A DNA stretch of 33,947 bases from a virus, in the IMG/VR virus record IMGVR_UViG_3300030419_006406, positions 1 to 33,947 of that record. One strand, written 5' to 3'. Below the pieces are notes generated by a model. That model was not told the origin of the DNA. It was given only the letters and a program-made list of their open reading frames with translations, and did no database searches. Position numbers and translations under genes: made by a program. Below, in pieces: positions 7,700 to 26,941 of the stretch. Position 1 is the first letter of the stretch. Every line of letters begins with the position of its first letter.

Positions 7700-8812
7700 T
7701 CAACCCTCGATATCGTAATATTCGTTTGCGTCGCCTTCGCGTTTATCAAACTTAAGGATAACTTCTTCATCCATAATCTGCAAGATCCTTGCTCGGAATT
7801 TTTCGTCTTGGATCTTCTCCTTCCATTTGGAAGGTTGAAACTTCACCGACTCTCCATCCCCCATGTCCAGGGTATACCAAGCCCCAGATGATTTCATGCG
7901 GTTTGAACCTTTGACTGCTTCAAACCAACTCTCCTCATCCTGAATCCCGATGTCGTCTCCCCAGAGAATCTTAAATGTGCATTGCCTGCCTTGAGTTCCA
8001 AAACGACTCTTCTTTAGTGTCGCTTTAACCTCTGAGCCAACACGGAAACCACGGTCGTCCGTGATATAGGATGCCTTCGATTTTCTCCCGGTGAGCCATA
8101 CTCTAAGAGAATAAGCGTAAATCATTGCTTTTCCTCCAGGCGTCATGTAAGGTTCCACCATTGCTTCGGACGGGCTTCTCGTAATATTTGTCTTGAGTTG
8201 GTTTAAGACCAAAAATGTTGATTGACTGTTAGCGATTGGTACTGTTAGTTTACTCATGCCCTTAGCCAAGATTCTAGCTTTGACTGCCATGGAAGACAGT
8301 GGGTTAAAGTCCCCTTCAATGTCGCTCACGGCAGGCGTTAGAGCCAAAGAATCCCAAATGAACAACATCTGAGTTTCGTTGTTACCCAAGAGATCTTCGA
8401 TTGTCTCCAATACAAATTCTACCGATTGTGCCTGCACATATAACAACGTACTCAGATCACACCCCGCCTTTTCTAAAAAGCCCGGGTCAATTGCTGATTC
8501 CGAATCAAAATATACAACATCAATGCCCATCTTCTGAGCGTTGGCTGCAATTTGCGCGGCCATATAACTTTTCCCTGAGGCCTCAAGGCCTGCGATCTCA
8601 ACAACTTTACCAACGGGGATGCCAGATAACTTCCCACGGCAAATAATCGAGTCCAACCATCGGGATCCCGTCGGGATCCATTCTTTTACTTCTGTTGGGT
8701 TACTCTCCTGCAAACTATGCGCGACAGCCATTCCGGCTTTCTTGTTAATTATACTGCGCATCTCGCTTATAGAAAGTTTACCAGTTTTTGTTTTTTTACG
8801 TGCGCTTGACAT
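7700..8812 (-). CDS. uvsX: UvsX/RecA-like recombinase
   Basis: This 370-aa protein has the RecA core. Walker A is GLEASGKS (75-82), the catalytic Glu lies in VYFDSESAIDP (E105), and LFIWDSLALTP is Walker B. VLNQLKTNI is the Q-containing motif before loop L2, and MTPGGKAMIYAYSLRVWL closes the core. It would form filaments on single-stranded DNA, drive strand exchange and support recombination-dependent replication together with the gp32-like protein directly upstream. The start has a strong GAGGAG ribosome site just after the intergenic hairpin. The C-terminus is acidic. Length and motifs fit phage UvsX/RecA proteins. No UvsY or UvsW mediator is in the window. Confidence 0.9.
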   Translation of the reverse strand: MSSARKKTKTGKLSISEMRSIINKKAGMAVAHSLQESNPTEVKEWIPTGSRWLDSIICRGKLSGIPVGKVVEIAGLEASGKSYMAAQIAANAQKMGIDVVYFDSESAIDPGFLEKAGCDLSTLLYVQAQSVEFVLETIEDLLGNNETQMLFIWDSLALTPAVSDIEGDFNPLSSMAVKARILAKGMSKLTVPIANSQSTFLVLNQLKTNITRSPSEAMVEPYMTPGGKAMIYAYSLRVWLTGRKSKASYITDDRGFRVGSEVKATLKKSRFGTQGRQCTFKILWGDDIGIQDEESWFEAVKGSNRMKSSGAWYTLDMGDGESVKFQPSKWKEKIQDEKFRARILQIMDEEVILKFDKREGDANEYYDIEG

Positions 8813-8905: not shown

Positions 8906-9667
8906 CTAGGATCCTAAAAGGTCATTAAAGGCCGCGTCGACCTCTGATACGTCTGAGTTTGTATCACTTGTTTTGCCGTATTTGGCCTCTTCAACAGAGT
9001 TCTCCTCTGCATCTGTGCCTCCAGCAAGATACTCTTCCAAAATTAGGCCGACCTGTTCAGGCGTTTTACGCTCAAAGAGGTCATTAAATTCTGGAATTGA
9101 TGCCAGGAGCGTTTCCGCATGTCCAGTATCTTCCACCAGGGCAGTTGATTTGCGTCTAGGGGTGATCTTGGTTTGTGGAAAAGAAGCTCCTGCTGGCTTG
9201 CCGTAATGGATGACAAGATCTGTCCCCTCTTCGGGATCTGTAATATCTCCATACTCCGGATTTAAAACCAAGCTCAACAGCTTTTCATAAGCCATCTTGC
9301 CGTAGCCCCAAATCTTAACTCCTTGGCCTTCCTCACCTCGAACAAGCACTGGAGAAAAGAAACGTTGACGAGCCATGAGATTTTTAGCCATCTTAATGCT
9401 GTCATCGGTGCCCTCGTTGAAAAGTTCGCGGACGAAAGAATCAAGAGGGTCATCCTCGCCAAAGTTTTTCTTTGGACTTAAGAACCCAGGGTTGTCCCCC
9501 AGATTATAGTGAAACCAGAAATCCTTGAACGGATCCCCGTCAGCAGTAGGGAGGATACGAATTGTTTGCTCCCCATCCTTTGGACGCCAGAAGACAGAAT
9601 CGCCTCCTCCGCCTCTATTTTGCAATTTAGAGAGTTTGCTTCTCATTTTATTCAGGTCAATGCCCAT
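8906..9667 (-). CDS. gp32-like single-stranded DNA-binding protein
   Basis: This 253-aa protein matches the T4 gp32 layout. A basic N-terminal cooperativity segment (LNKMRSKLSKL, the LAST-type motif) is followed by a glycine linker and an OB core with VFWRPKDGEQTIRILP, FWFHYNLG and RQRFFSPVLV. A conserved stretch GVKIWGYGKMAYEKL comes next. The tail after residue 215 is acidic with Ser/Asp runs and ends AAFNDLLGS, as expected for partner docking. There is no cysteine in the protein, so the zinc site of T4 gp32 is absent. The ribosome site AAAGGAG is strong. A GC-rich hairpin follows the stop, fitting a need for high expression. Confidence 0.88.
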   Translation of the reverse strand: MGIDLNKMRSKLSKLQNRGGGGDSVFWRPKDGEQTIRILPTADGDPFKDFWFHYNLGDNPGFLSPKKNFGEDDPLDSFVRELFNEGTDDSIKMAKNLMARQRFFSPVLVRGEEGQGVKIWGYGKMAYEKLLSLVLNPEYGDITDPEEGTDLVIHYGKPAGASFPQTKITPRRKSTALVEDTGHAETLLASIPEFNDLFERKTPEQVGLILEEYLAGGTDAEENSVEEAKYGKTSDTNSDVSEVDAAFNDLLGS

Positions 9668-10430: not shown

Positions 10431-10459
10431 AGAATAACACATTAAATTATTTTTGTCAA
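10431..10459 (-). promoter_or_regulatory. Strong sigma70-type promoter before the gp32/uvsX unit
   Basis: On the minus strand -35 TTGACA (10459-10454) and -10 TATTCT (10436-10431) are 17 nt apart in an AT-rich spacer. As at the second promoter, the TGA within TTGACA is the stop codon of the upstream gene, here the WYL_2-like one. The expected start near 10424 gives a leader of about 57 nt. Confidence 0.78.
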
Positions 10460-10722
10460 GACAAAAGTTCATTTTTCCCAACAAAAAATTCTTGAACTTC
10501 ACCTATGACAGTTCCCCAGTTGAAAACCCTGAAGCCTGTCTCAAGTTCCCAAACAACTTCGCACTTTTCCTGAAGTTTTCTTGGCTTTGTTGAATCCTTG
10601 ATTTTAGAATCGACGAAAGCCTTTGGCAAATCTGAGACCTTAACAAACTTCATGATTCTCTGATCGCCGTTCTTTTTTACAAACTTTCCTTGGAAAGCCT
10701 TTATTGATTTTTTCTCTGACAT
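10456..10722 (-). CDS. Small WYL_2/DUF2693-like protein
   Basis: This 88-aa protein has the pattern of the small SH3-like WYL_2 (DUF2693) domain of T4-type phages. It shows FVKKNGDQRIMKFVKV (the 'x-KKDG-x-R-x-M' strand pair) and, after a lysine-rich link, CEVVWELETGFRVFNWGTVIGEV. The C-terminal 'W-x-x-x-x-G-F-R-x-F-N-W' signature is distinctive. WYL-related domains bind ligands or nucleic acids in regulators; the role of the lone phage version is not settled. It follows the FtsZ-like gene by 3 nt. Its TGA stop lies inside the -35 box of the next promoter. The family call is moderately sure. Confidence 0.65.
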   Translation of the reverse strand: MSEKKSIKAFQGKFVKKNGDQRIMKFVKVSDLPKAFVDSKIKDSTKPRKLQEKCEVVWELETGFRVFNWGTVIGEVQEFFVGKNELLS

Positions 10723-10725
10723 TTT

Positions 10726-11568
10726 TTATCCTTCTTGTATTTCCGAGCTTAGTGCAAGCGTATAAACATAATCTTGTTCGTAATTTGTTGAGTAGATGCC
10801 GTAACTTGCTTTTATGCCCTCTTGATTGTTTTCTTTAAGCTGGGCCTTTATCTTTTTCAGAAGGCCCTTTTCTGAATCCAATCGTTCTTTATTAATACCA
10901 TAATAGTATCTTATTTCACGGGTTTTGTCAAGAGTAAAAAAATAACTTAGATCCCTTTCAAATTGTCCGTAACCAATTGTGGCTATGCGCGCAGTCTCTG
11001 GCGGGTCAGAAAAGGTATCTGTCACTGAATCAATGTGATTGTAGACGTTGATCATATGCAATGTAGAAACAATGGCTTCATAAGCTGCTTGACTCTGCTG
11101 TGCTAATGGCGCGTGTTCAACCAGGTGTTCAATATTTAATAAGTCAACCAAGAAAATCCTATCAAAGACAGCGGATCTGGTGTATTCTTGCAGAACATTG
11201 AAGGCAATCCTGTTTGTCATTTGAGAGAGGTTTGAAAAATATTCCATATCTTGCTTTATATATAAGATGCTTATATGGCAGTTCTTTTTCTTTACATTCT
11301 CTAAGATTCTCAGTGTTGCGGCGGAAATCTCTTCAGAGCCATCCACGATAAATAAAACTTCTCCAGAACAATTCTTAAAAAAGTTTTTCATGCTTGGGCA
11401 CTTTGCTTCATATTCCTCTGGGTTTGCCTGCTTTGGAAAATCATAAACCCCATTCTTCTTAAGGCCCTTTAAGCCTAATCCGATTTTATATATGTTGTAC
11501 TGATCGTAAGACGCAAAATGATCTGCGATAGCACAACCAGTCTTCCCTAATCCGATAATCGTTTCCAT
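10726..11568 (-). CDS. Putative degenerate FtsZ/tubulin-like protein
   Basis: This 280-aa protein reads like an FtsZ/TubZ GTPase domain in strand and helix order. It begins IIGLGKTGCAIADHF (G6, G8, G11), like the first loop of FtsZ/CetZ proteins. EVLFIVDGSEEISAATLRIL (about 70-89) sits where the tubulin signature GGGTGTGA should be, but the glycine run is gone. CHISILYIKQ, a helix with NRIAFNVLQE, DRIFLVDLLNIEHL and later TARIATIGYGQFERDL match the order of the FtsZ strand, the 'R-x-x-N-A' helix, the 'D-x-x-I-x-x-x-N' strand and the 'A-x-x-G-x-G' strand. If correct, it may have lost GTP hydrolysis. It lies in the replication operon. This is an inference from pattern, and other Rossmann-like folds remain possible. 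Confidence 0.45.
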   Translation of the reverse strand: METIIGLGKTGCAIADHFASYDQYNIYKIGLGLKGLKKNGVYDFPKQANPEEYEAKCPSMKNFFKNCSGEVLFIVDGSEEISAATLRILENVKKKNCHISILYIKQDMEYFSNLSQMTNRIAFNVLQEYTRSAVFDRIFLVDLLNIEHLVEHAPLAQQSQAAYEAIVSTLHMINVYNHIDSVTDTFSDPPETARIATIGYGQFERDLSYFFTLDKTREIRYYYGINKERLDSEKGLLKKIKAQLKENNQEGIKASYGIYSTNYEQDYVYTLALSSEIQEG

Positions 11569-11569
11569 T

Positions 11570-11881
11570 TTATTCTTCTACAGATAGCAAGATAACCTTA
11601 TCAACAAAGGCGCCTTTCTCGTCAGACTTGGCACTCATACATTCAATCAGTTCATCTTGCGTATAGCCAAATGCATCGACTATCGCACTAAACACTTCAA
11701 AAATGTCTGCTAATTCTTCGAGAGTCGAGTCTTTAATAAACTCGTTGGTTTCTTCCTTTAATTTTTGTTTTAACAGCTCTTTGTACTCATCCTCATCAGC
11801 GTACCTAACAGTAAAGGTTTTACCTTCTGCAGTCAGGATGCCTGGAATCTTATCTCTTACTAATTTATTGTATACTTTCAT
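11570..11881 (-). CDS. MazG/HisE-like NTP or phosphoribosyl-ATP pyrophosphohydrolase
   Basis: This 103-aa all-alpha protein begins YNKLVRDKIPGIL, the hallmark of a HisE-like family common in phages and plasmids. It carries the metal-binding pairs EExxE (43-47) and ExxD (56-59, in LEELADIFEVF) of the MazG superfamily. It likely hydrolyses a nucleoside triphosphate or related nucleotide to the monophosphate, either cleaning the dNTP pool or tuning ppGpp-type signals. The true substrate cannot be read from sequence. It overlaps the DNA polymerase gene by 4 nt (ATGA) and is followed within 1 nt by the FtsZ-like gene. Confidence 0.8.
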   Translation of the reverse strand: MKVYNKLVRDKIPGILTAEGKTFTVRYADEDEYKELLKQKLKEETNEFIKDSTLEELADIFEVFSAIVDAFGYTQDELIECMSAKSDEKGAFVDKVILLSVEE

Positions 11882-13062
11882 ATTTTTAACCTCTTCATAT
11901 CTCCAAAATTTTTACCTGCTGATATATTCACTTTAAAGCTCCCTAGTTCTGTATCTGAAAAGATCTTTTTAACCTCGGGAATCATATATCGTTCATCGTC
12001 GCAAAAATCAATTACAAGACTGTCGTGAATAGAAAAACTTATGCTTGATTTTTTATCTTTTAAAAATTCGTGCACCTTAATCATTCTCCTCAAAAACAAA
12101 TCACTAGTTGTACTTTGTATTATATAATTCAAGGCGTGATGTTTATCAGCAGCAATAATTCTACCATAAAACGTATGTATTTGTTCACCGTCCCAGTGTT
12201 TTTTTAGGACGGAATCGCGATCATAAGTCTTGTTGGATTTGCTGTCTTTTGACTCTGGGTTGTAAAGCCAGGCGAACACCCTCTTCTTTGCTTCGTCTCT
12301 TGTCATCTTACCACCATACACATGCTTGGCATTCCAATTATGAATGTCCTCTAGAGGCTGTTCTTTATCGGACAGAGCTAGAAGGGTGCGAAGTTCTGCT
12401 GCGTTAAAGTCAAACTCCACGAACCAGTCATTATTTGGCTTTATCACTTTTCTATACTCTTTTGCCAAAGTTAAAATAGGAAAGCTGTGCTTTTTTGTGG
12501 TGAGCCGGCCAGTCTTTGTGCCAAATACATCATATTTTATGTAGGGTGAAGTCTTCTGGATCTTATCTTTTATTTGTCTTACCTTGAAATCATAAATCTT
12601 TTTATTCATCGGAGTTAAATCGATCTTAAGTTTCTGAAATGAAATATCATTTATAACCGATTGCAAAGATAAGAGAAAGTCATAATTTGAAGGCCTCTCA
12701 TATTTGTCAAAAACATGTTCTGTGATTCTGTTTTTAACATCACAAAAGTCTAGAAGAAATCTTTCAGGAACTAAATCAAAAAAGCAGTTCTCATTTAAAT
12801 CGACCTTTGCTTCCTTGAAGGATCTCATAAAAGCTCTGAGCTTGTTTGAAACGTCTTCCCACTGCTCCTTTAGCAGGTCTGGGCAAGCGGCCCCAGGATT
12901 ATCCGTACCACAGTAGAGATTAGCAAAGTCGATATCTTGTCCAGCCAGATAGCCGGCGAAAGACCAAGTTCTAGTGAGACTGTCAGAAAGTTCCTTATGA
13001 ATTTGTCCATTATGATATACTCCTACGCACTCTTTTTTATCGTCTAAAGTCTGAAATAGCAA
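11878..13062 (-). CDS. Short family A DNA polymerase without exonuclease domain
   Basis: This 394-aa protein covers only a Pol I-type polymerase domain. TGRLTTKKHSFPIL corresponds to the TGRLSS region. Motif A is EFDFNAAELR (D218, E223). Motif B is RDEAKKRVFAWLYNP (R255, K259, F263, Y267). LNYIIQSTTSDL precedes motif C, SIHDSLVIDF (H346, D347). Motif C ends HDS rather than HDE, and motif B has FAWLYN in place of FGxxYG. Both catalytic aspartates remain. No 3'-5' exonuclease domain fits in the roughly 160 residues upstream, so proofreading would need another gene. The start is TTG at 13062 with a weak GAGAAG site, so the exact N-terminus is uncertain. It follows the last structural gene. Confidence 0.85.
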   Translation of the reverse strand: MLFQTLDDKKECVGVYHNGQIHKELSDSLTRTWSFAGYLAGQDIDFANLYCGTDNPGAACPDLLKEQWEDVSNKLRAFMRSFKEAKVDLNENCFFDLVPERFLLDFCDVKNRITEHVFDKYERPSNYDFLLSLQSVINDISFQKLKIDLTPMNKKIYDFKVRQIKDKIQKTSPYIKYDVFGTKTGRLTTKKHSFPILTLAKEYRKVIKPNNDWFVEFDFNAAELRTLLALSDKEQPLEDIHNWNAKHVYGGKMTRDEAKKRVFAWLYNPESKDSKSNKTYDRDSVLKKHWDGEQIHTFYGRIIAADKHHALNYIIQSTTSDLFLRRMIKVHEFLKDKKSSISFSIHDSLVIDFCDDERYMIPEVKKIFSDTELGSFKVNISAGKNFGDMKRLKI

Positions 13063-13073
13063 TATCTTCTCTT

Positions 13074-14591
13074 TTAATCTTGAATCCCAAGCGTGGCAGC
13101 GGCTTGCGTGACCGTTTGTTCCACGCCAGACAATGCCATCCTCATTTGTTCGAATTCTTTGATTTGAGCCTCAATGGCTGCAATAGCCATATCAATTTTT
13201 GGAGGTGGCGCAAGGCCAGCGATTATTAAAGGAATAAGACCTCTGAGATCTTTTGGCGGGGCCATCTGGATTGAAAGATTTACATCTCTGCATCTTTCAT
13301 AATCTTGACAGAACCTCAAATCTAGGTTTTTGGATTTTAACATCTTAACCACATTATTAATATACTCCATTGCGCGGATTTTGTCAAGCGATTTCATAAT
13401 TTTTTTACCGTTCAGTACGAATTTATCATATTCTTTTGTTTCAATTTTTAAGTTCTCTTCCTTAAGCCTCATTCGAAAGCAAAGCTCCATCCAGTAATCC
13501 ATTTGATATCTATTTCTTACCTGTGGATAAGTTATTTCTTCTCTTTGTATATATGTTTTTGATAGTTTTGTGTGTCTGCAAGAGAGATTGTCAAATTTCA
13601 TAACTCTTGGTTGCTCTTCAATAAACTGAGTGTACATATCGAACATTTTTCGCCTAAGTTCGATGGCATCTGAGAGGTATGTCTTCTCGTAATAAGCATC
13701 AAACAGATTTGAGCAGCCGCCAGGGTTGTATACCAAACCGTATTTTGGTATCATTTTAAAAGACGCATCCATTATTTGTGAATCAGATTTCTTCTGCTTG
13801 CGACCTTCCTCTATTTGAGTCTGAGTAGGGTAGACATATTTGACCCAATAATCTTGCATCTGCTTTGACGAAACATCAGCCACAAGTCTCCAGGGTACAA
13901 ATTTATCGACCATAAAACCAAACTTTATCGCTGAATTTCTATAAAAATCAAAATTAGGATCAGTAATCCATGTGGTAGCATTAGAACTATCCGAGGGGTC
14001 CAGCTGGTCTAATTCGATCATTAAACCTGTTGACAGCGGGTTGAAAAGCGGAGATTTTATGAACCCTGTTTTAGTCATAACCATTTCCTGGCCGAATTCA
14101 TCATAAAATTGCCTAAACATAATCACAAAATCATCAAAATCTAATATCATTTTATTCCGGCCGGCCTGTGATAAGAATATATTTTTGAATATCTCAAAAA
14201 CAATCGTTGTATATCCATCATAAATTTTTTGTGGATTTTGATATGCCTCTTTTGGCTCTAGTTTAATAATTTTTTGTGAACCGGATTTTCTTAATCTGCC
14301 CATAGAGTTTGCTTTTGCAAAATGTCTTTTCAAATCACTAAAAGCGTCTGCGACGAAATTTAGCGCAAAATGTGCTTGAGTTGCTTCTAGTTGTTTCACT
14401 GTGAGAACCTTTTCTAACCCTATATGGTCCAATGTCTTATTTCTCAACATAACAGCGTTTTGCGCTTGGTCTACACGGCCGTAGTTCATCACATCATACG
14501 TCAAATCAATCGGCTTGGCGCCTCTTGTGGGGTACCCTGAGTCTTTCAAAGCTTTGTTGAAAATAAAATCATCTTGTGGATTATACGGCAT
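13074..14591 (-). CDS. Virion structural protein candidate, unknown family
   Basis: This 505-aa protein is the last gene of the structural module. It has no recognised domain. It is mixed alpha/beta with many aromatic residues (PNFDFYRNSAIKFGFMVDKF, CSNLFDAYYEKTYL, RYQMDYWMELCF). A short Pro/hydrophobic segment LIPLIIAGLAPPPKIDM precedes a C-terminal helix (IEAQIKEFEQMRMALSGVEQ). It shares a 1-nt overlap (TAATG) with the 1110-aa baseplate candidate upstream, so the two are co-translated. By position it may be a baseplate wedge or hub component. No enzymatic motif is visible. Confidence 0.6.
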   Translation of the reverse strand: MPYNPQDDFIFNKALKDSGYPTRGAKPIDLTYDVMNYGRVDQAQNAVMLRNKTLDHIGLEKVLTVKQLEATQAHFALNFVADAFSDLKRHFAKANSMGRLRKSGSQKIIKLEPKEAYQNPQKIYDGYTTIVFEIFKNIFLSQAGRNKMILDFDDFVIMFRQFYDEFGQEMVMTKTGFIKSPLFNPLSTGLMIELDQLDPSDSSNATTWITDPNFDFYRNSAIKFGFMVDKFVPWRLVADVSSKQMQDYWVKYVYPTQTQIEEGRKQKKSDSQIMDASFKMIPKYGLVYNPGGCSNLFDAYYEKTYLSDAIELRRKMFDMYTQFIEEQPRVMKFDNLSCRHTKLSKTYIQREEITYPQVRNRYQMDYWMELCFRMRLKEENLKIETKEYDKFVLNGKKIMKSLDKIRAMEYINNVVKMLKSKNLDLRFCQDYERCRDVNLSIQMAPPKDLRGLIPLIIAGLAPPPKIDMAIAAIEAQIKEFEQMRMALSGVEQTVTQAAATLGIQD

Positions 14592-17500
14592 TAGTAATGG
14601 GCCCTGTTTTTATTTGCTAAGGCATCTTTGTCGCCAAAAGAGTTCCAAACGCTAACCACGTCTGTGCTCCAATCTATTTTGTTCCCAGCTAAGACCAAAG
14701 AATTAGAAGTTTTGGTTATCATGAAATAGCCCCCTAAGCCTAAGCGCTGTGCAGGTGAAAACTTATTTTTTGGAAGACCAAAGTGTGGCAATCTAATATA
14801 TACAAAAACACCGGGCTTTAAAAAATTGTTCCCAAACAAAGAAAAAGTACAGTTATATGGCTCACTCAATACAAGCGGCTCTCCCTTAAACCCAGAAGTG
14901 TCGCCCTTTGCCTCTAAATAGAAAGGTTGATCCATTTTTGTAAAGGATATACTTTGAACCGGAGTGCCATCAGTGCCAACTTCTAGGTAAAATATACCAT
15001 TTTCAAGATCTTTCTTTTTGTCAGCGACCATAAAGCTAGTTGGCTTATCTGTTGTTGCACACAAATAGATTATTTCCTGTCGTTCACTGAGGACTTCCTT
15101 ATTGATCCCGATGGTTGGTGCAACTATATCTGCTGGGGCGCCCTTTGTAGGGTCAAGCTCAACGCCCTCTGGTTCCATGGGAAGCTTGTTTGGCTTGCCG
15201 GGGTTTGTGCCGGCTATGTGGGCGCGCCAGACCCTATCTAGTGATTTCGCAAACTGCTTGTTGGGGCTTTTTCCGGCTGCGTACAATACGTCACCCCTTG
15301 GCGGTAGTGAAAAAACCTTGTGCTCCGCATTTTTAGGTATCGATTGTTGAAATATATGTGGTTTTATCCCAACGATTGGCTCCCCTCTTTCTGCGCATTT
15401 ATTTGTCAGAGCAGCCTGTACAAGTTCAGTCATCGCGTCTCTCAAAAACGCCATGAAAGAATACCTTTCACGCATGGGTTTTATAACCTTCGAGGTCCAA
15501 AATTCTCGAAAAAGTTCAAATGACACCGGTAGATCTACTAAATTAATTGTCTTCTTTTTGCCTTCGATTTGGTCAAAATAAGTGACGTCGCCCAGTATAA
15601 CTTTAAGAGAGCCTCCAAGTTGGGTCTTGTCATCAGAGTCCGGGGCGCGCCAAAGATCTAATTGCAACTTCTCATCGTTGATATCAGTTTCTCTGACTAT
15701 TTCTAAAGCCGCATCGATTATGTCTCCAAAATAAAGCCAGCTTATATTATACCATTCGTGTGGGCTTTTACCGTCCGGTGCTATAATTTCTGGATTGAGA
15801 TCCGATTCTTCCATCTCATCATCGCCGGCATACCCCTCCTGCTGAGCCACCCATTGGCCAATTCTATCCTTCCACTTGACAATAACTTTCTGGTTGCCGT
15901 CTCTTGTGTTGAGCAGTGGGATGCCTCCCTCACCGTAGGTGCCCAGGGCTGGGGATCCAAACTGATCTTCACCGGCTTTTACAGGAGTCTCCCACACAGG
16001 GCTCGAAGATTTATTTAATTCTTTATATAAATACTTGTATATTAGACGTCGCTCAAACAAAACATCTGTCTTACCTTCCTTGCGGATTTGATCTTTCTCA
16101 ACTACAATGCCGCCGCCTCGCAGTCGATTTTCTCGTTGCTGTCGGACTTTTTCAATCTCTTTACGATTGTTTTTTGCATTTGAGCCTAAGCCATCTTGGA
16201 TTTTCTTTATTTGTTCCTGTTCATTATCTGTTAATGCTTTGTTTCGTGCGAACCTGTTATAATCCGTGATCATCTTATTAGGAATGGCCAATTGATAAAA
16301 ACGATTTCTGCGCGGACATTTCTTTTCCTGATCGGTGCTCGGGTGACCAGTCAGCTCATCTAACAATCTTGTATAATTGGATGTTTTTAACTGGTCGTCT
16401 CTCTGGTTGGCCTTGTGAAGCGTATTGCGCCAATTAGCCCGGGCTTGCATGTATCCGATAAGTTCGTTGCCCAATCTTGCAGTAGCGTCGGTAGCAGCGG
16501 AAAAAGGTATTTTGATACTCGACCCTTCGGCACCCCCCCAGAAGGGAAATCGTTCTACGCCGGATGCTGTTTGTCCAAACGTTCGTGCCTCGTCCGGAAT
16601 TGCTTTTGGGTCTGATACGTAGGCTGGATATTGGCCTCTATCGGGCAGCAGCACAGTGGCGGCGCCGCCGAAGCCGAGACCTGCGACTCGCCTCTGATCT
16701 TTAAATGCAAAGAATTCAGCCTTATTATAACCCTGAGGGTCAAAACCATAATTTGTCCTGATATTTTGAGCATGACGGTTCATAATGGACCACCACGAAT
16801 GGTCGGCTTCTTGTAGTTCCTTAACTCTCGCTTCATCTCTTGCATTCCCTCTCAAGATATCGGCATCAGGAGAATATAAAGCTGTTTCAACTGCTCCATT
16901 GTAAGTGATGTTTACCTCGAATGGGCTAGAGGGCAAATCTCCTCTAAAATTAAAAGTATGCCTTAAGAGGTTTAAGTAAAAGCTGGATTTAATTGTACTG
17001 AGAGCTTCGCGAAGCTCGGCGGCTTTGGCGCGGTAATCGGGGGGGCCCACAAAAGTTGATGATGAATATATTTCTGCGACAGCTTCCTCAAGCCACTCGG
17101 CCGAGACAGCATCAGCATAGCTGATGTCAATCCTAATTCTAAAATATTTTGGATCCCATGCCATATGGTTTGTCGCGCCATAAACAACATCGTGCGCAGG
17201 AGATTCTGTGTATTTTTGTGGTCTCATAATTAAGTCAGCAAAAGACACGTATGGGGGAGTCCCAGCCCCTAACTTCTCCTTAATGTTTTCAGGAATGGGG
17301 TACCCATGAAACATAGCGTCGGCAGTCGAAAACCACAACCTTAGATTAACATTAATAAAATAATCAACCTCTGCTGGATTTGTGCCGAGGTAATCAAATG
17401 AAAGATCTTTTAGTCCGACGGCCAGGTGACCTGGAAGAGCGTTGTCGGGCCCGGTGTACTGGGCTCCAGGGCCCGGGTTTTGCTTAAACGTCATCTCGTC

Positions 17501-17923
17501 TGGGGCCGCAAAATTGTTAAGGGGGAGTGGTACCGGGACACCAGTTTTATCATTTTCACTTGTATAAAATATTTTATATAGTTCAATTTTCGGCTGGAGA
17601 TTTGATAACATTTCTTTCGGTACGTTCTCTAATAAAGATTGAGCGGATGGCGAAGAAAGTCTTGTCATGAAAGAAACTGAACCTTCGTCTGCCGATTCAC
17701 TTTGCACTGCAGTGTTTGTACGCAAGTGATTTCTGTCCACCTTCATCAAGTTTAAAGGCTGGCTTATTATTCCTTTGTGTCGAGCATTCTTAAAGTGTTG
17801 AGAGTTTGATAATGGGTCTCTCTGGCTTTCTGAGCCGTGGATAGAAACAAAAAAGTCCATAAAATCTTTTATGAAGCATTGTTCCGAATATGGTTTGTTT
17901 TCCTTGTCCTTTTCAGTAGCCAT
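14591..17923 (-). CDS. Large baseplate/hub protein candidate
   Basis: This 1110-aa protein lies directly after the LysM-like gene. The N-terminal half is beta-rich with a repeated feel (LSFDYLGTNPAEVDYFINVNLRLWF, YFRIRIDISYADAV). A charged helical middle (about 530-620, NRKEIEKVRQQRENRLRGG) follows. The C-terminal 100 residues contain NCTFSLFGNNFLKPGVFVYI and GLGGYFMITKTSNSLV. That last pattern (a pore-like beta domain with 'L-G-I-G-G-Y-x-x-V-x-K-x-x') recurs in baseplate hub proteins that plug the tail tube. A hub or wedge role fits the tail gene order, but this is inference and no close family was named. No lysozyme or protease signature was seen. Confidence 0.55.
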   Translation of the reverse strand: MATEKDKENKPYSEQCFIKDFMDFFVSIHGSESQRDPLSNSQHFKNARHKGIISQPLNLMKVDRNHLRTNTAVQSESADEGSVSFMTRLSSPSAQSLLENVPKEMLSNLQPKIELYKIFYTSENDKTGVPVPLPLNNFAAPDEMTFKQNPGPGAQYTGPDNALPGHLAVGLKDLSFDYLGTNPAEVDYFINVNLRLWFSTADAMFHGYPIPENIKEKLGAGTPPYVSFADLIMRPQKYTESPAHDVVYGATNHMAWDPKYFRIRIDISYADAVSAEWLEEAVAEIYSSSTFVGPPDYRAKAAELREALSTIKSSFYLNLLRHTFNFRGDLPSSPFEVNITYNGAVETALYSPDADILRGNARDEARVKELQEADHSWWSIMNRHAQNIRTNYGFDPQGYNKAEFFAFKDQRRVAGLGFGGAATVLLPDRGQYPAYVSDPKAIPDEARTFGQTASGVERFPFWGGAEGSSIKIPFSAATDATARLGNELIGYMQARANWRNTLHKANQRDDQLKTSNYTRLLDELTGHPSTDQEKKCPRRNRFYQLAIPNKMITDYNRFARNKALTDNEQEQIKKIQDGLGSNAKNNRKEIEKVRQQRENRLRGGGIVVEKDQIRKEGKTDVLFERRLIYKYLYKELNKSSSPVWETPVKAGEDQFGSPALGTYGEGGIPLLNTRDGNQKVIVKWKDRIGQWVAQQEGYAGDDEMEESDLNPEIIAPDGKSPHEWYNISWLYFGDIIDAALEIVRETDINDEKLQLDLWRAPDSDDKTQLGGSLKVILGDVTYFDQIEGKKKTINLVDLPVSFELFREFWTSKVIKPMRERYSFMAFLRDAMTELVQAALTNKCAERGEPIVGIKPHIFQQSIPKNAEHKVFSLPPRGDVLYAAGKSPNKQFAKSLDRVWRAHIAGTNPGKPNKLPMEPEGVELDPTKGAPADIVAPTIGINKEVLSERQEIIYLCATTDKPTSFMVADKKKDLENGIFYLEVGTDGTPVQSISFTKMDQPFYLEAKGDTSGFKGEPLVLSEPYNCTFSLFGNNFLKPGVFVYIRLPHFGLPKNKFSPAQRLGLGGYFMITKTSNSLVLAGNKIDWSTDVVSVWNSFGDKDALANKNRAHY

Positions 17924-23635: not shown

Positions 23636-26600
23636 TTAATCTGCGAATGATGCTCCCGAATCTGTGATTACAAAATCAAGTGCAATAAATTCAATTGCTT
23701 GTGCTGGCTTCAAGAAGATTTTTGCATACAAGATATTTCTATCAACCAACTCAGGCGTGGTAGTGGTTTCGTCTAGTACGACTTTGTAGTCAACTAAACC
23801 TTGGCCACTTTTAATATTGGACAACAATGTCTCAACTTGGCCAGCGAATTTGTTCCACGTTGCTTGCACGTTTTGTTCAAACAATGTGGTCGCTGCAATT
23901 CTAGAAACTTGTTTCTTAATCAAAAGCAACAAGCGGCGTACGTTGATCCTGTCCAGGGCAGAAGGCGTCACTTGAAGAGTCTTTTGTCCAAAGACGACGA
24001 CACCCTCGGCAGGGAACGATGCGATAGGATTGATATTTGCAGCATAAAGGTCATCTCGCTCCTCTGAGGTGAGTTGCAATTTAACACCTGTTACTGGTAG
24101 ACCTGCTGCGCCGGCGGAGAGTCCACCACGGGTGAATCCTGCTGGGGCGAACCAAACTTCGCGGACAGCCTCGCTGTATGCCAAAGTACCCAAGGCGACG
24201 ACGGAGGGTGGAACGTACACAAGCCTATTGGCGTTAGTATCCCTAATTTGAACAAAGGGGTAATAAGCCGCTGCGTAGCTAGAGTTAATTTGTCGGCTTT
24301 TCAAATTGTTAACCGTTGTAATAACATTCGGTCGATTAGTGGCCTCTGTGCTGGTGTTCTCATGAGGGGGAACATAGTCGCCCTCAAGATCAACAATGGC
24401 CATACAATCGGCTCTGTCCTCACATGTTTCAATTAAATGATCTGTAAGGGCAGAATTTGTGATACCTGGCAAGACGGCCAAGTTAATATCGACAACCTCG
24501 GGATCCTTGATTGTATCAATCGCTCTCTTTACTGAGTAGAAAGCATAGTTTCCAACCTCGGTACCATTAGTCATGAAAGTGTTCCTGAAAGGATCTTTTT
24601 CCGTGATATCTAAGCCATCTGTGCCACCGTGGAAAACGGTGGTAAATTTATTATAGCCTAGACCAGAACCCGTAAGGAGGGTGCTAGAGCCAGACGTCGA
24701 CGTAATTGAACCATTATCGCTACCGCCGGTTGTTCCACCAGTAAAAGCTGAAGGCACATTAGTGCTGCAGTTAGCATCCCAGTTCGTTTGATTACTCAAA
24801 GTAATAGTGGTGTTGCCACTTGTGCCGGCAGTCCCTTGTGTCAAAGTTACTTGACCGGTCGCAGGGTTCGCTGCTGCAATGTTTAAAGAAGAAGCATTGA
24901 TCGCATTTACCAAAGCTGTGGCGAAGCCTGCTGCGCCGGAGCCGTCTACTGCGGTGTTGGTACCTGATGCCCCGTCGCCAGTATCGTCAACCTCAAAAAC
25001 TACCGAAGTTGAGGCTGCGTCAGTCAACGTTATTGTGGTTTCTTCATTTGGCTTATCACTGAAAGTCCAGGTTGCTGTGGCCTTTTCATTCGAATGAGAG
25101 GCTCTAGAACCCGAAATATATTGAATTAAGCCGCCATCATTGCGGTCTGCGATATCATCAAGAGAAAATACATAAGAATACTCTACACTAGTGGTATCAT
25201 CATCAGCGTCCAGGGTGCCGGGTAGTGGACGCAATACATCAAAAACACTCTTATCTAGCTTAGCAGATCCGGACTTCCCTAGGTCAACACCCCAGTACTG
25301 ATTGCTTTGCTTATCCATGCGGTTTTGACGACCATCATGCTTCAAAGGAAGAATCGGGAACATGTAGGACGATGTAGAATATGGTGGAAATTGTGGTTCG
25401 CGGCAATTTAAGTTATCTATATCTAAGGGGGTTTCGCCATCTCCCTTGATAAAGCAAGCGTGACCCAAAGCATCAAGCTCAGTTACATTAGTAATCGAAC
25501 TAACATCCTTGACTTTTGGAGCCCCAAAGAAACCAAACGGAAGCAGTTCTGCTGCTGTGGCGCCGGCGGCAACCTCTGTGTTCATTTCGACATAGACATA
25601 TCTAGAAATATTATCATAATCACCATAGTGGCGATATCTTCTTTCAGTTTCATCCCAAATTTGATGTTTGTCGCCAACCTTTCTAGCCACATAATTTTCA
25701 GAATTAGGGTTCAACGAACAATTGGTGAACTTTTCGATAAAGCGGACTGCCTTGTCAGTGTCTTCTACCTTTCTAATTGCAACAGTAAAGGTGCCAAAAG
25801 GATCAGATTTGTTAGAAGAAGGTTTGATATCCTGGATTGAAACCTTGAGGTTTCTTTGAGTCCATTCACCGTGCTCTCTAGCAATAAGCCTGAAAAGTTT
25901 TTGCTGATCAGCTGGTTTATAATTCGCGGGCGAGCCTAGGTCTTGGCCAATGAACCACCCAGTTCGTGCTTTGGTGGCTGGGCGCTGGTGGTCTGCCCAT
26001 TCAATTGCAGAGGCTCCTTGTGAAGAAAGACCGAGAATTACACCATGAGTAACATCGTTCAAGCTGGTGAGCTTCCCGCGTTGATGGCCAGGATATTCTT
26101 CGGCCAACAGGCTACGTTCAAAACTTTCTCCTAGGAAGTAGTTTTTATATGCAGTGCCGGTGCTGGAAACAACGTCGCTGTTTGTAACAATTGGATTAGT
26201 ATTAAACACTTTTCTAATATAATTGTCGGAATTCTCATCAAAATTGAAAACAACCTTTTCGGCCGTGCCGGCACGAACAGTAGCTTTAGTGCCAATAAGT
26301 GCTGTGAATTCTGCGCTTTTATTAGCAGAAGAGGTTGCGATTGAGACAGCCATAGATGCTGTGGTTTGGTTGGGCGCATCATAATCATCGCTGAAACCCT
26401 GCTCGACTGCACCTGTAAGAGCGATCAAGCTGCCAGCGTTCATTGCATAGAAGACCGCTCCAAGATTCCATGTTTGGGTACCATTGGACTGGGAGTTCAT
26501 CAAAAACAGGCCATAAGCTCCACCTTTGTTTACTGATCCTCCGCCAGCGCCAACGGATTCGGCAACGTTGCCAGCATCCCAGCCGGCGTTTTGATCGCCG

Positions 26601-26941
26601 TCTCCAGAAGTTCTATTAGAAGAGTGCTCGCCATGCAGCCTTAAGATGGTCGCGGGCGACTGATTTCTAAGCCACGCTTGCGCAGCGTAGCCAGCATAAG
26701 TTGGAGAGGAATAATTACCCTCTCTATAAACATCACCTGCCCTGCCTCCCGGCATTGGTTCTCCAAATATTTCTACGTACTCGGAAAATGAATTTACTGT
26801 GACCGGAATCATTCCGGGGCCTTTTTCTGTTCTACCAATAATCACCGGGCCTGGTGGTAGGCCAACTCCTGGAAGCTGGGAGTTGTCGATCTCTTCTAGG
26901 AAGATACCGGGTGAAACAAATCTAAACTTTTTTTCAGCCAT
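23636..26941 (-). CDS. Contractile tail sheath protein, gp18-like, with large inserts
   Basis: This 1101-aa protein starts with FVSPGIFLEEIDNSQLPG and PPGPVIIGRTEKGPGMIPV, diagnostic of T4-type sheath proteins. It ends with the conserved C-terminal handshake domain (RLVYVPPSVVALGTLAY, AAGLPVTGVKLQLTSEERDD, NPIASFPAEGVVVFGQKTLQ, INVRRLLLLIKKQVSR). It is much longer than T4 gp18 (659 aa). The extra mass includes a Ser/Thr/Gly-rich segment at about 615-760 with TITLTDAASTSVVFEVDDTG and TGQVTLTQGTAGTSGNTTIT, which reads as an exposed beta-sandwich domain seen in many marine phage proteins. The sheath contracts to drive the tube through the envelope. The start has an AAAGGAGA site, and a late motif lies 43 nt upstream. 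Confidence 0.92.
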   Translation of the reverse strand: MAEKKFRFVSPGIFLEEIDNSQLPGVGLPPGPVIIGRTEKGPGMIPVTVNSFSEYVEIFGEPMPGGRAGDVYREGNYSSPTYAGYAAQAWLRNQSPATILRLHGEHSSNRTSGDGDQNAGWDAGNVAESVGAGGGSVNKGGAYGLFLMNSQSNGTQTWNLGAVFYAMNAGSLIALTGAVEQGFSDDYDAPNQTTASMAVSIATSSANKSAEFTALIGTKATVRAGTAEKVVFNFDENSDNYIRKVFNTNPIVTNSDVVSSTGTAYKNYFLGESFERSLLAEEYPGHQRGKLTSLNDVTHGVILGLSSQGASAIEWADHQRPATKARTGWFIGQDLGSPANYKPADQQKLFRLIAREHGEWTQRNLKVSIQDIKPSSNKSDPFGTFTVAIRKVEDTDKAVRFIEKFTNCSLNPNSENYVARKVGDKHQIWDETERRYRHYGDYDNISRYVYVEMNTEVAAGATAAELLPFGFFGAPKVKDVSSITNVTELDALGHACFIKGDGETPLDIDNLNCREPQFPPYSTSSYMFPILPLKHDGRQNRMDKQSNQYWGVDLGKSGSAKLDKSVFDVLRPLPGTLDADDDTTSVEYSYVFSLDDIADRNDGGLIQYISGSRASHSNEKATATWTFSDKPNEETTITLTDAASTSVVFEVDDTGDGASGTNTAVDGSGAAGFATALVNAINASSLNIAAANPATGQVTLTQGTAGTSGNTTITLSNQTNWDANCSTNVPSAFTGGTTGGSDNGSITSTSGSSTLLTGSGLGYNKFTTVFHGGTDGLDITEKDPFRNTFMTNGTEVGNYAFYSVKRAIDTIKDPEVVDINLAVLPGITNSALTDHLIETCEDRADCMAIVDLEGDYVPPHENTSTEATNRPNVITTVNNLKSRQINSSYAAAYYPFVQIRDTNANRLVYVPPSVVALGTLAYSEAVREVWFAPAGFTRGGLSAGAAGLPVTGVKLQLTSEERDDLYAANINPIASFPAEGVVVFGQKTLQVTPSALDRINVRRLLLLIKKQVSRIAATTLFEQNVQATWNKFAGQVETLLSNIKSGQGLVDYKVVLDETTTTPELVDRNILYAKIFLKPAQAIEFIALDFVITDSGASFAD

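Follow-up and report, generated by a model that had tools for sequence, protein, structure and literature searches.

What does a tubulin-like protein do inside a phage replication operon, and does it still need a nucleotide to do it? The question is raised by a 280-aa reading frame in the window, by which we mean the whole 33,947-nt stretch of viral DNA analysed here, a 34-kb contig whose tail sheath, tube and baseplate genes are of the T4 type. The initial annotation had read this frame as a protein with the strand and helix order of the tubulin superfamily. The frame itself was confirmed by the ORF call and its ATG start (Table 1), and the N-terminal loop that had been singled out, IIGLGKTG, is present within ETIIGLGKTG at residues 2-11. 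Searches with Pfam, PHROG and NCBIfam, and with phmmer and hmmsearch against the PDB, gave no usable identification of the window protein. It had no match to NCBIfam ftsZ or to PF00091 (best relative, E 0.0055); Pfam Tubulin matches, none of which reached the cut-off, were seen in 8 of 79 members, with that same best value, and an hhalign comparison of the family with FtsZ (P 0.034) fell short of significance. Sequence alone thus does not reach significance for membership of the tubulin family.

Structure prediction was far more informative. An AlphaFold2 model of the window protein, built with 50 IMG/VR relatives, has a mean pLDDT of 92.1 and a pTM of 0.91, and it bears out the proposed order of elements: S1-H1-S2, S4-H4-S5-H5-S6-H6, a 23-residue H7 (155-177) and a C-terminal alpha/beta domain. 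FtsZ and TubZ fill the top 50 Foldseek matches in the PDB, with FtsZ in first place (best E 6.6e-13, prob 1.00). With VIA-align, the model matches CetZ 3zid at Z 24.5 (259 residues, 3.0 A), TubZ 2xka at Z 23.1 (273 residues), FtsZ 2r6r at Z 22.3 and tubulin at about 21-21.6, and matches across the superfamily cover 259-275 of the 280 residues. A second model, of a distant relative (L013, 52% identity) built with 78 other sequences, has a pLDDT of 95.4 and the same structural matches, at Z 24.6. As far as predicted models can tell, the fold match goes well beyond chance, and it is repeated by the second model. The check that had been proposed, structure prediction followed by Foldseek, therefore came out with FtsZ and TubZ on top, and a tubulin-order GTPase domain, core helix H7 and C-terminal alpha/beta domain are present in both models.

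An ordinary Rossmann protein without H7 had been named as the finding that would speak against a tubulin, and a nucleotide- or NAD-binding protein of the TrkA-N or dehydrogenase type could indeed be misread in this way, given the N-terminal GxGxxG, the acid after the second strand and the weak N-terminal Pfam TrkA_N matches of 24 of 79 relatives (best 4.6e-6). However, H7 is there, both models match FtsZ, TubZ, CetZ and tubulin over their full length including the C-terminal domain, only members of the tubulin superfamily appear among the 50 matches listed, and viral dehydratases reach a TM of 0.30. We rejected the Rossmann identity on the full-length match and consider it very improbable. The predicted fold runs the full length of the window protein, but the signature loop, the base contacts, the T7 acids and H8 all fail; we therefore place it in a new family of tubulin-fold proteins, distinct from FtsZ, TubZ and PhuZ.

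Table 1. Positions, on the window, of the tubulin-fold gene, its elements and its neighbours.
Feature	Position	Strand	Basis
Tubulin-fold protein, 280 aa, ATG start	10726..11568	(-)	ORF; AlphaFold2 model; Foldseek/VIA
T1 loop equivalent, residues 6-13, GLGKTGCA	11530..11553	(-)	Alignments; S1 3-7 and H1 8-18 in model
T4 loop equivalent, residues 76-84, DGSEEISAA	11317..11343	(-)	Alignment; after S4 70-75 in model
Residue 143 (Leu), aligned with the FtsZ N165 / tubulin N206 guanine contact	11140..11142	(-)	Alignments
Start of core helix H7, residues 155-163	11080..11106	(-)	Model, alignments
T7 segment, residues 178-194, 17 residues, without H8	10987..11037	(-)	Model secondary structure
C-terminal domain, residues 195-274 (S7, S8, H10, S9, S10), no disordered tail	10747..10986	(-)	Model
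MazG-like small ORF, 103 aa, upstream, 1-nt gap	11570..11881	(-)	Sub-threshold Pfam/PHROG; synteny
Family A DNA polymerase (PolA), 394 aa, polymerase part only	11878..13062	(-)	PF00476 E 5e-17
88-aa ORF, downstream, 3-nt gap, AAGAAGGAT ribosome-binding site	10456..10722	(-)	ORF list, synteny
gp32-like single-strand DNA-binding protein	8906..9667	(-)	PF08804 E 2e-12, phrog_1192 E 3e-25
UvsX-like recombinase	7700..8812	(-)	phrog_97 E 1e-53

The fold has been stripped down, and this holds for the whole family. At the T4-loop position the initial annotation had read VDGSEEISAA, and these residues (75-84) do follow strand S4 directly in the model. The signature that they replace, GGGTGTGA (GGGTG(T/S)G), is absent as claimed, but its absence is not peculiar to the window protein: none of the 235 full-length family members has it (pattern GGGTG[TSA]), their T4 loop being mostly [GACS]G[SA]GxISG[AG]. 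The T4 loop of phiKZ PhuZ, GGASGSTIG, departs from the signature as well. Since GGGTGTGA is lacking both family-wide and in phiKZ PhuZ, its absence alone proves nothing. The segment from H7 to S7 is 17 residues long in 164 of 166 representatives and helix-free in both models, and H8 is therefore absent. The window protein has H178-x-D180 where FtsZ has N-x-D, and across the family only H/N178-x-E/D180 is left of the T7 motif NxDxxD, with an acid at 180 in 127 of 166. The C-terminal domain of the family has no H9 and no tail, and the window protein ends 6 residues past S10. With H8 and the tail gone, both of which are used by known filament formers, and the acidic T7 motif partial, canonical protofilaments are doubtful even for the relatives.

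Overlapping scans of IMG/VR proteins gave 55, at least 591 and 134 matches to the family, INPHARED gave none and GTDB genomes gave one, in the 'chromosome' of a WOR-3 MAG (CP070664.1:2241234-2262046). This MAG probably contains phage sequence, either a prophage or a mis-binned contig, because the match lies in a PolA - tubulin-fold - gp32 - UvsX block. In each of ten long records (148-204 kb) there is a gp23 capsid gene, and the tubulin-fold gene is present exactly once. The family belongs to large, uncultured, mostly ocean-sampled T4-like (gp23+) phages. It is previously undescribed; a literature search, with subscription papers and preprints mostly outside its reach, turned up no account of a protein with this fold in an operon of this kind.

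The replication-operon setting that had been proposed for the gene stands, with PolA, UvsX, gp32, a 5'-3' exonuclease, DnaB and RNR around it. PolA lies upstream; the order then runs from the MazG-like ORF across 1 nt to the tubulin-fold gene, across 3 nt to the 88-aa ORF, and on through a 225-aa ORF, gp32, UvsX, exonuclease and DnaB to RNR, with AGAAG and AAGAAGGA as plausible ribosome-binding sites at both gene starts. In the relatives, 149 of 152 loci have PolA upstream, at a distance of no more than 2.6 kb, and gp32 and UvsX follow downstream in 153 and 144 of 153 loci, respectively. The immediate neighbours are less constant: the 88-aa ORF recurs in 13 of 153 relatives and the MazG-like ORF in 80 of 152 loci. 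A small ORF does adjoin the gene where a MazG-like neighbour had been noted, but its MazG identity is only sub-threshold (E 0.01-0.02). Judged by gene position, the strict linkage to the genes for the polymerase and the single-strand-binding protein points to a role in phage DNA replication.

Some features of the surrounding region are recorded here in their own right. The window PolA has no exonuclease domain, and its one INPHARED match is distant (26% identity), from an uncultured 484-kb phage, LR756508. The stretch that separates the tail module from the replication operon (13074-17923) encodes proteins of 505 and 1110 aa without a PHROG match; the 505-aa protein recurs upstream of PolA in 148 of the 152 relatives. 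The tail sheath protein (23636-26941) is 1101 aa long, of which an N-terminal part of ~620 residues lies outside the best sheath profile.

The same linkage to PolA and gp32 would also suit a replisome accessory that does not polymerise, a monomer or dimer sitting on the short PolA or on gp32, perhaps with a part in processivity or regulation. The polymerase has only 394 aa, H8 and the tail are absent, so that filament contacts would be reduced, and one Pfam model for a T4-type sliding clamp, which scores T4 itself at 3e-35, found no clamp in any of the 10 long genomes. This last point is weak support: the clamp search was not exhaustive, a known Kyanoviridae phage reaching only 0.002 with the same model, and the matches in a search for an AAA clamp loader were partial and not informative. 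We know of no precedent for a tubulin fold as a replisome accessory. A factor of this kind is the main rival to the reading that we prefer below, although we think it unlikely.

In the nucleotide pocket, the members of the family divide. The pocket is kept by 154 of 166 representatives, with GLGxAGCN, D30, GSGxISG, N143, an aromatic at 158/159 and N163; N143 and N163 are present in all 154, D30 in 148 and G79 in 144. In hhalign alignments with E. coli FtsZ and with an FtsZ profile, N165, F182 and N186 of FtsZ are the counterparts of family positions 143, 159 and 163. We take tubulin N206, Y224 and N228 to be the equivalent guanine contacts, and a Y-x-x-x-N spacing of four is common to tubulin and the family. 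The window protein retains Gly6, Gly8 and Gly11 of the T1 loop, but relative to the family GLGxAGCN it has Thr for A10 and Ala for N13, and relative to the T4 loop [GACS]G[SA]GxISGA it has Glu for G79 and Ala for G83. At the start of H7, Q158 and S159 replace the aromatic pair and Y163 replaces the Asn at the FtsZ N186 / tubulin N228 position, and the guanine-contact positions read L143, S159 and Y163. What sets the window protein apart is the joint loss of A10 of T1, D30 of T2, G79 of T4, N143 of T6 and N163 of H7.

The loss of the pocket that had been claimed for the window protein is supported, but it is no one-off, since the protein is 1 of 12 degenerate members. Among the 166 representatives, 154 have both N143 and N163, 12 have neither and none is mixed. 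In 11 of the 12, G79 is lost, to Glu or Asp; residue 143 has become Leu, Val or Met and residue 163 Tyr or His, and D30 and A10 are partly lost. On a tree of the representatives computed without the pocket columns, three separate losses are required, and well-supported branches force two of these; the losses fall in groups comprising the window protein with L002, L057, L058 and L060; L073, L080, L226, L232 and L071; and L109 and L086. The MazG-like ORF was considered as a correlate of pocket loss and rejected, being present beside the gene in the window, L057, L073 and L109 and absent in L059 and L060.

A scan for positions conserved in at least 85% of the 154 kept members and at most 35% of the 12 lost ones yielded 10, 30, 79, 143, 163 and 245, five of the six in pocket loops (hypergeometric P 9e-5); N143 defined the lost class and so is not independent support, which leaves four of five independent positions in the pocket. 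In 300 random clade triples of similar size, at most one such position was found in each, and with only 2-3 independent losses formal tests on the tree are powerless. Taken together, the coupled loss and the position scan are good evidence that the family pocket would hold a guanine nucleotide and that three lineages abandoned it. We infer that most relatives very probably bind guanine nucleotide in a tubulin-type pocket and that the window protein does not.

Between the window protein and L002, segment 137-166, in which the base would formerly have been bound, has an identity of 0.40 against 0.79 overall, below the 5th percentile of intact pairs similarly diverged. Every degenerate member nevertheless keeps residues G6, L7, G8, G11, Y24, Y53, L86, Q127, R131, S132, H171, M172, F210, L213 and Y263, among which Y24, Q127, R131, S132, M172 and Y263 are invariant in the family. 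Q127, R131 and S132 are located where H5 ends, and the lower half of H7 contains H171 and M172; by the topology of the model, these invariant H5 and H7 ends would lie on the T7 side, opposite the nucleotide. A hydrophobic residue at 143, mostly Tyr at 163 and Glu79 in two separate lineages suggest a plugged pocket rather than random decay. The degenerate protein is kept by strong purifying selection: dN/dS is 0.086 for window-L002, 0.085 for L058-L060, 0.06 for L073-L080 and 0.04 (0.042) for L109-L086, comparable to the 0.055 of an intact-pocket pair (L017-L020). With values of 0.04-0.10 in every degenerate pair for which they could be computed, we rejected pseudogene decay.

Could the window protein still be a nucleotide-dependent tubulin, with altered binding of GTP or another nucleotide, forming dynamic PhuZ-like filaments that position phage DNA? 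PhuZ (phiKZ gp39, 201phi2-1) is likewise a phage-encoded tubulin fold, the T1 loop and an IDxS-type T2 are common to PhuZ and the family, and the profile-profile check that had been proposed found PhuZ nearest of the profiles tried; the match (hhalign E 2e-4, prob 46%) spans only the N-terminal 100 residues, S1-S5. The T1 glycines 6, 8 and 11 and D107 are kept, H178-x-D180 resembles the N-x-D of FtsZ T7, and phiKZ PhuZ filaments are dynamic in GTP despite their own departure from the T4 signature (PMC3678025). In contrast, both base-contact asparagines and the T4 glycine have been replaced three times in a coupled manner, the acid at 79 would face the phosphates, and there is neither an H8 nor a C-terminal tail. 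The dynamic filaments of PhuZ are driven by GTP, and the protein carries a C-terminal tail and, in T7, an LDxxD motif (PMC4244570, PMC3678025), whereas the family lacks the LDxxD motif, H8 and the tail, and the window protein also lacks the base contacts. The phages differ too, those of the family being without an INPHARED match; in phiKZ, PhuZ is encoded 8.7 kb from the DNA polymerase gene. We consider a nucleotide-dependent window protein improbable.

Several phages encode inhibitors of FtsZ, such as lambda Kil and T7 gp0.4, and the window protein might instead inhibit host division without binding GTP of its own, its retained T7-side face binding the nucleotide face of host FtsZ and capping or poisoning the filaments. 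The tubulin fold would fit, as would the residues at the C-terminal ends of H5 and H7, which no degenerate member has changed even though its nucleotide side has decayed. To our knowledge, however, no phage FtsZ inhibitor has a tubulin fold, and the near-invariant site between DNA polymerase and gp32 suggests replication rather than early host takeover. Nor can capping by a subunit free of nucleotide be what the family as a whole does, given that the pocket is intact in most relatives. Known filaments form their longitudinal contacts through T7, S9 and the base of H8 (PMC3678025), a helix that the window protein does not have. Capping of host FtsZ, which the initial annotation had suggested alongside co-polymerisation with it, is possible, but we regard it as distinctly improbable and less likely than a scaffold.

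We therefore favour, with a probability of roughly 55%, a replication-operon tubulin-fold protein that binds nucleotide in most relatives and is a pseudo-GTPase scaffold or adaptor in the window lineage. A small, stripped-down tubulin-fold protein would be a core member of the T4-like replication operon, made from the same message as DNA polymerase and gp32. Most relatives would carry guanine nucleotide in a tubulin-type pocket, as a GTP-regulated version, and the pocket would have been dismantled in the window lineage and, at a minimum, one or two further times in other lineages. In the window protein, Tyr163 and Glu79 may fill the empty pocket and lock a single conformation, and the invariant Q127, R131, S132, H171 and M172 may mediate contact with itself, the replisome or a host partner, so that it would serve the site of phage replication as a scaffold or adaptor that needs no nucleotide. 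For the window protein itself, we infer a partner and whatever assembly it may form. More tentatively, the tubulin-fold protein could be a built-in part of the replisome that in several lineages turned into a nucleotide-free, permanently assembled or capped pseudo-GTPase kept by selection.

Other known systems differ in both structure and setting. TubZ of Bacillus plasmids and phages is among the best structural matches but is ~130 residues longer (410 vs 280), and its setting is a tubZRC partition operon. None of the neighbours scanned here gave a TubR-like hit. FtsZ and CetZ share the two-domain fold with H7, and their base-contact Asn positions align in the relatives; at ~10-12% identity, the window family lacks their GGGTGTGA, H8 and C-terminal peptide, and it sits in a viral replication operon where FtsZ sits in a cell-division locus. 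FtsZl1 and FtsZl2 are divergent tubulin-superfamily families found by distant similarity by Makarova and Koonin in 2010 (PMC2875224). FtsZl1 has uncertain T6-H7 elements, like the window family, but, unlike it, both keep GGGTG(S/T)G, are cellular and have coiled-coil or other extra domains (PMC2875224).

A second family of tubulins (family B), also in large IMG/VR phages, has the canonical motifs. These are canonical phage tubulins (L258:988-2028 (-), which is L261; L257:1027-2121 (-); relatives L262-L308) of 346-364 aa, with GGGGTGS, NTT and FDxxD (an FDSKDL-type T7) invariant in 36 members and CetZ 3zid as the nearest PDB chain (E 4e-10). They occur in phage contigs of up to 281 kb and have no INPHARED match. 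Two of 26 records encode both families, with family B lying far from the replication operon: G001, which has lost the pocket and is the only long genome of the window clade, and G003, which has kept it. Among the long genomes, family B thus accompanies 1 of 1 with a degenerate pocket and 1 of 9 with an intact one. Its presence in G001 is a suggestive hint at a partner. As an obligatory or general partner it was rejected, because it is absent from 24 of the 26.

The tubulins known from phages, PhuZ and TubZ, form filaments powered by GTP and come from jumbo phages and plasmid-like phages. With the family described here, the tubulin fold reaches a T4-like group that is abundant and uncultured, where its gene is a near-invariant part of the replication operon; neither Pfam, PHROGs nor NCBIfam recognises the family, so many such genes go unnamed in viral databases. 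Nature has also supplied a before-and-after comparison, between relatives with an intact pocket and sister lineages that have lost the pocket and kept the protein, which makes it testable what a tubulin can do without a nucleotide.
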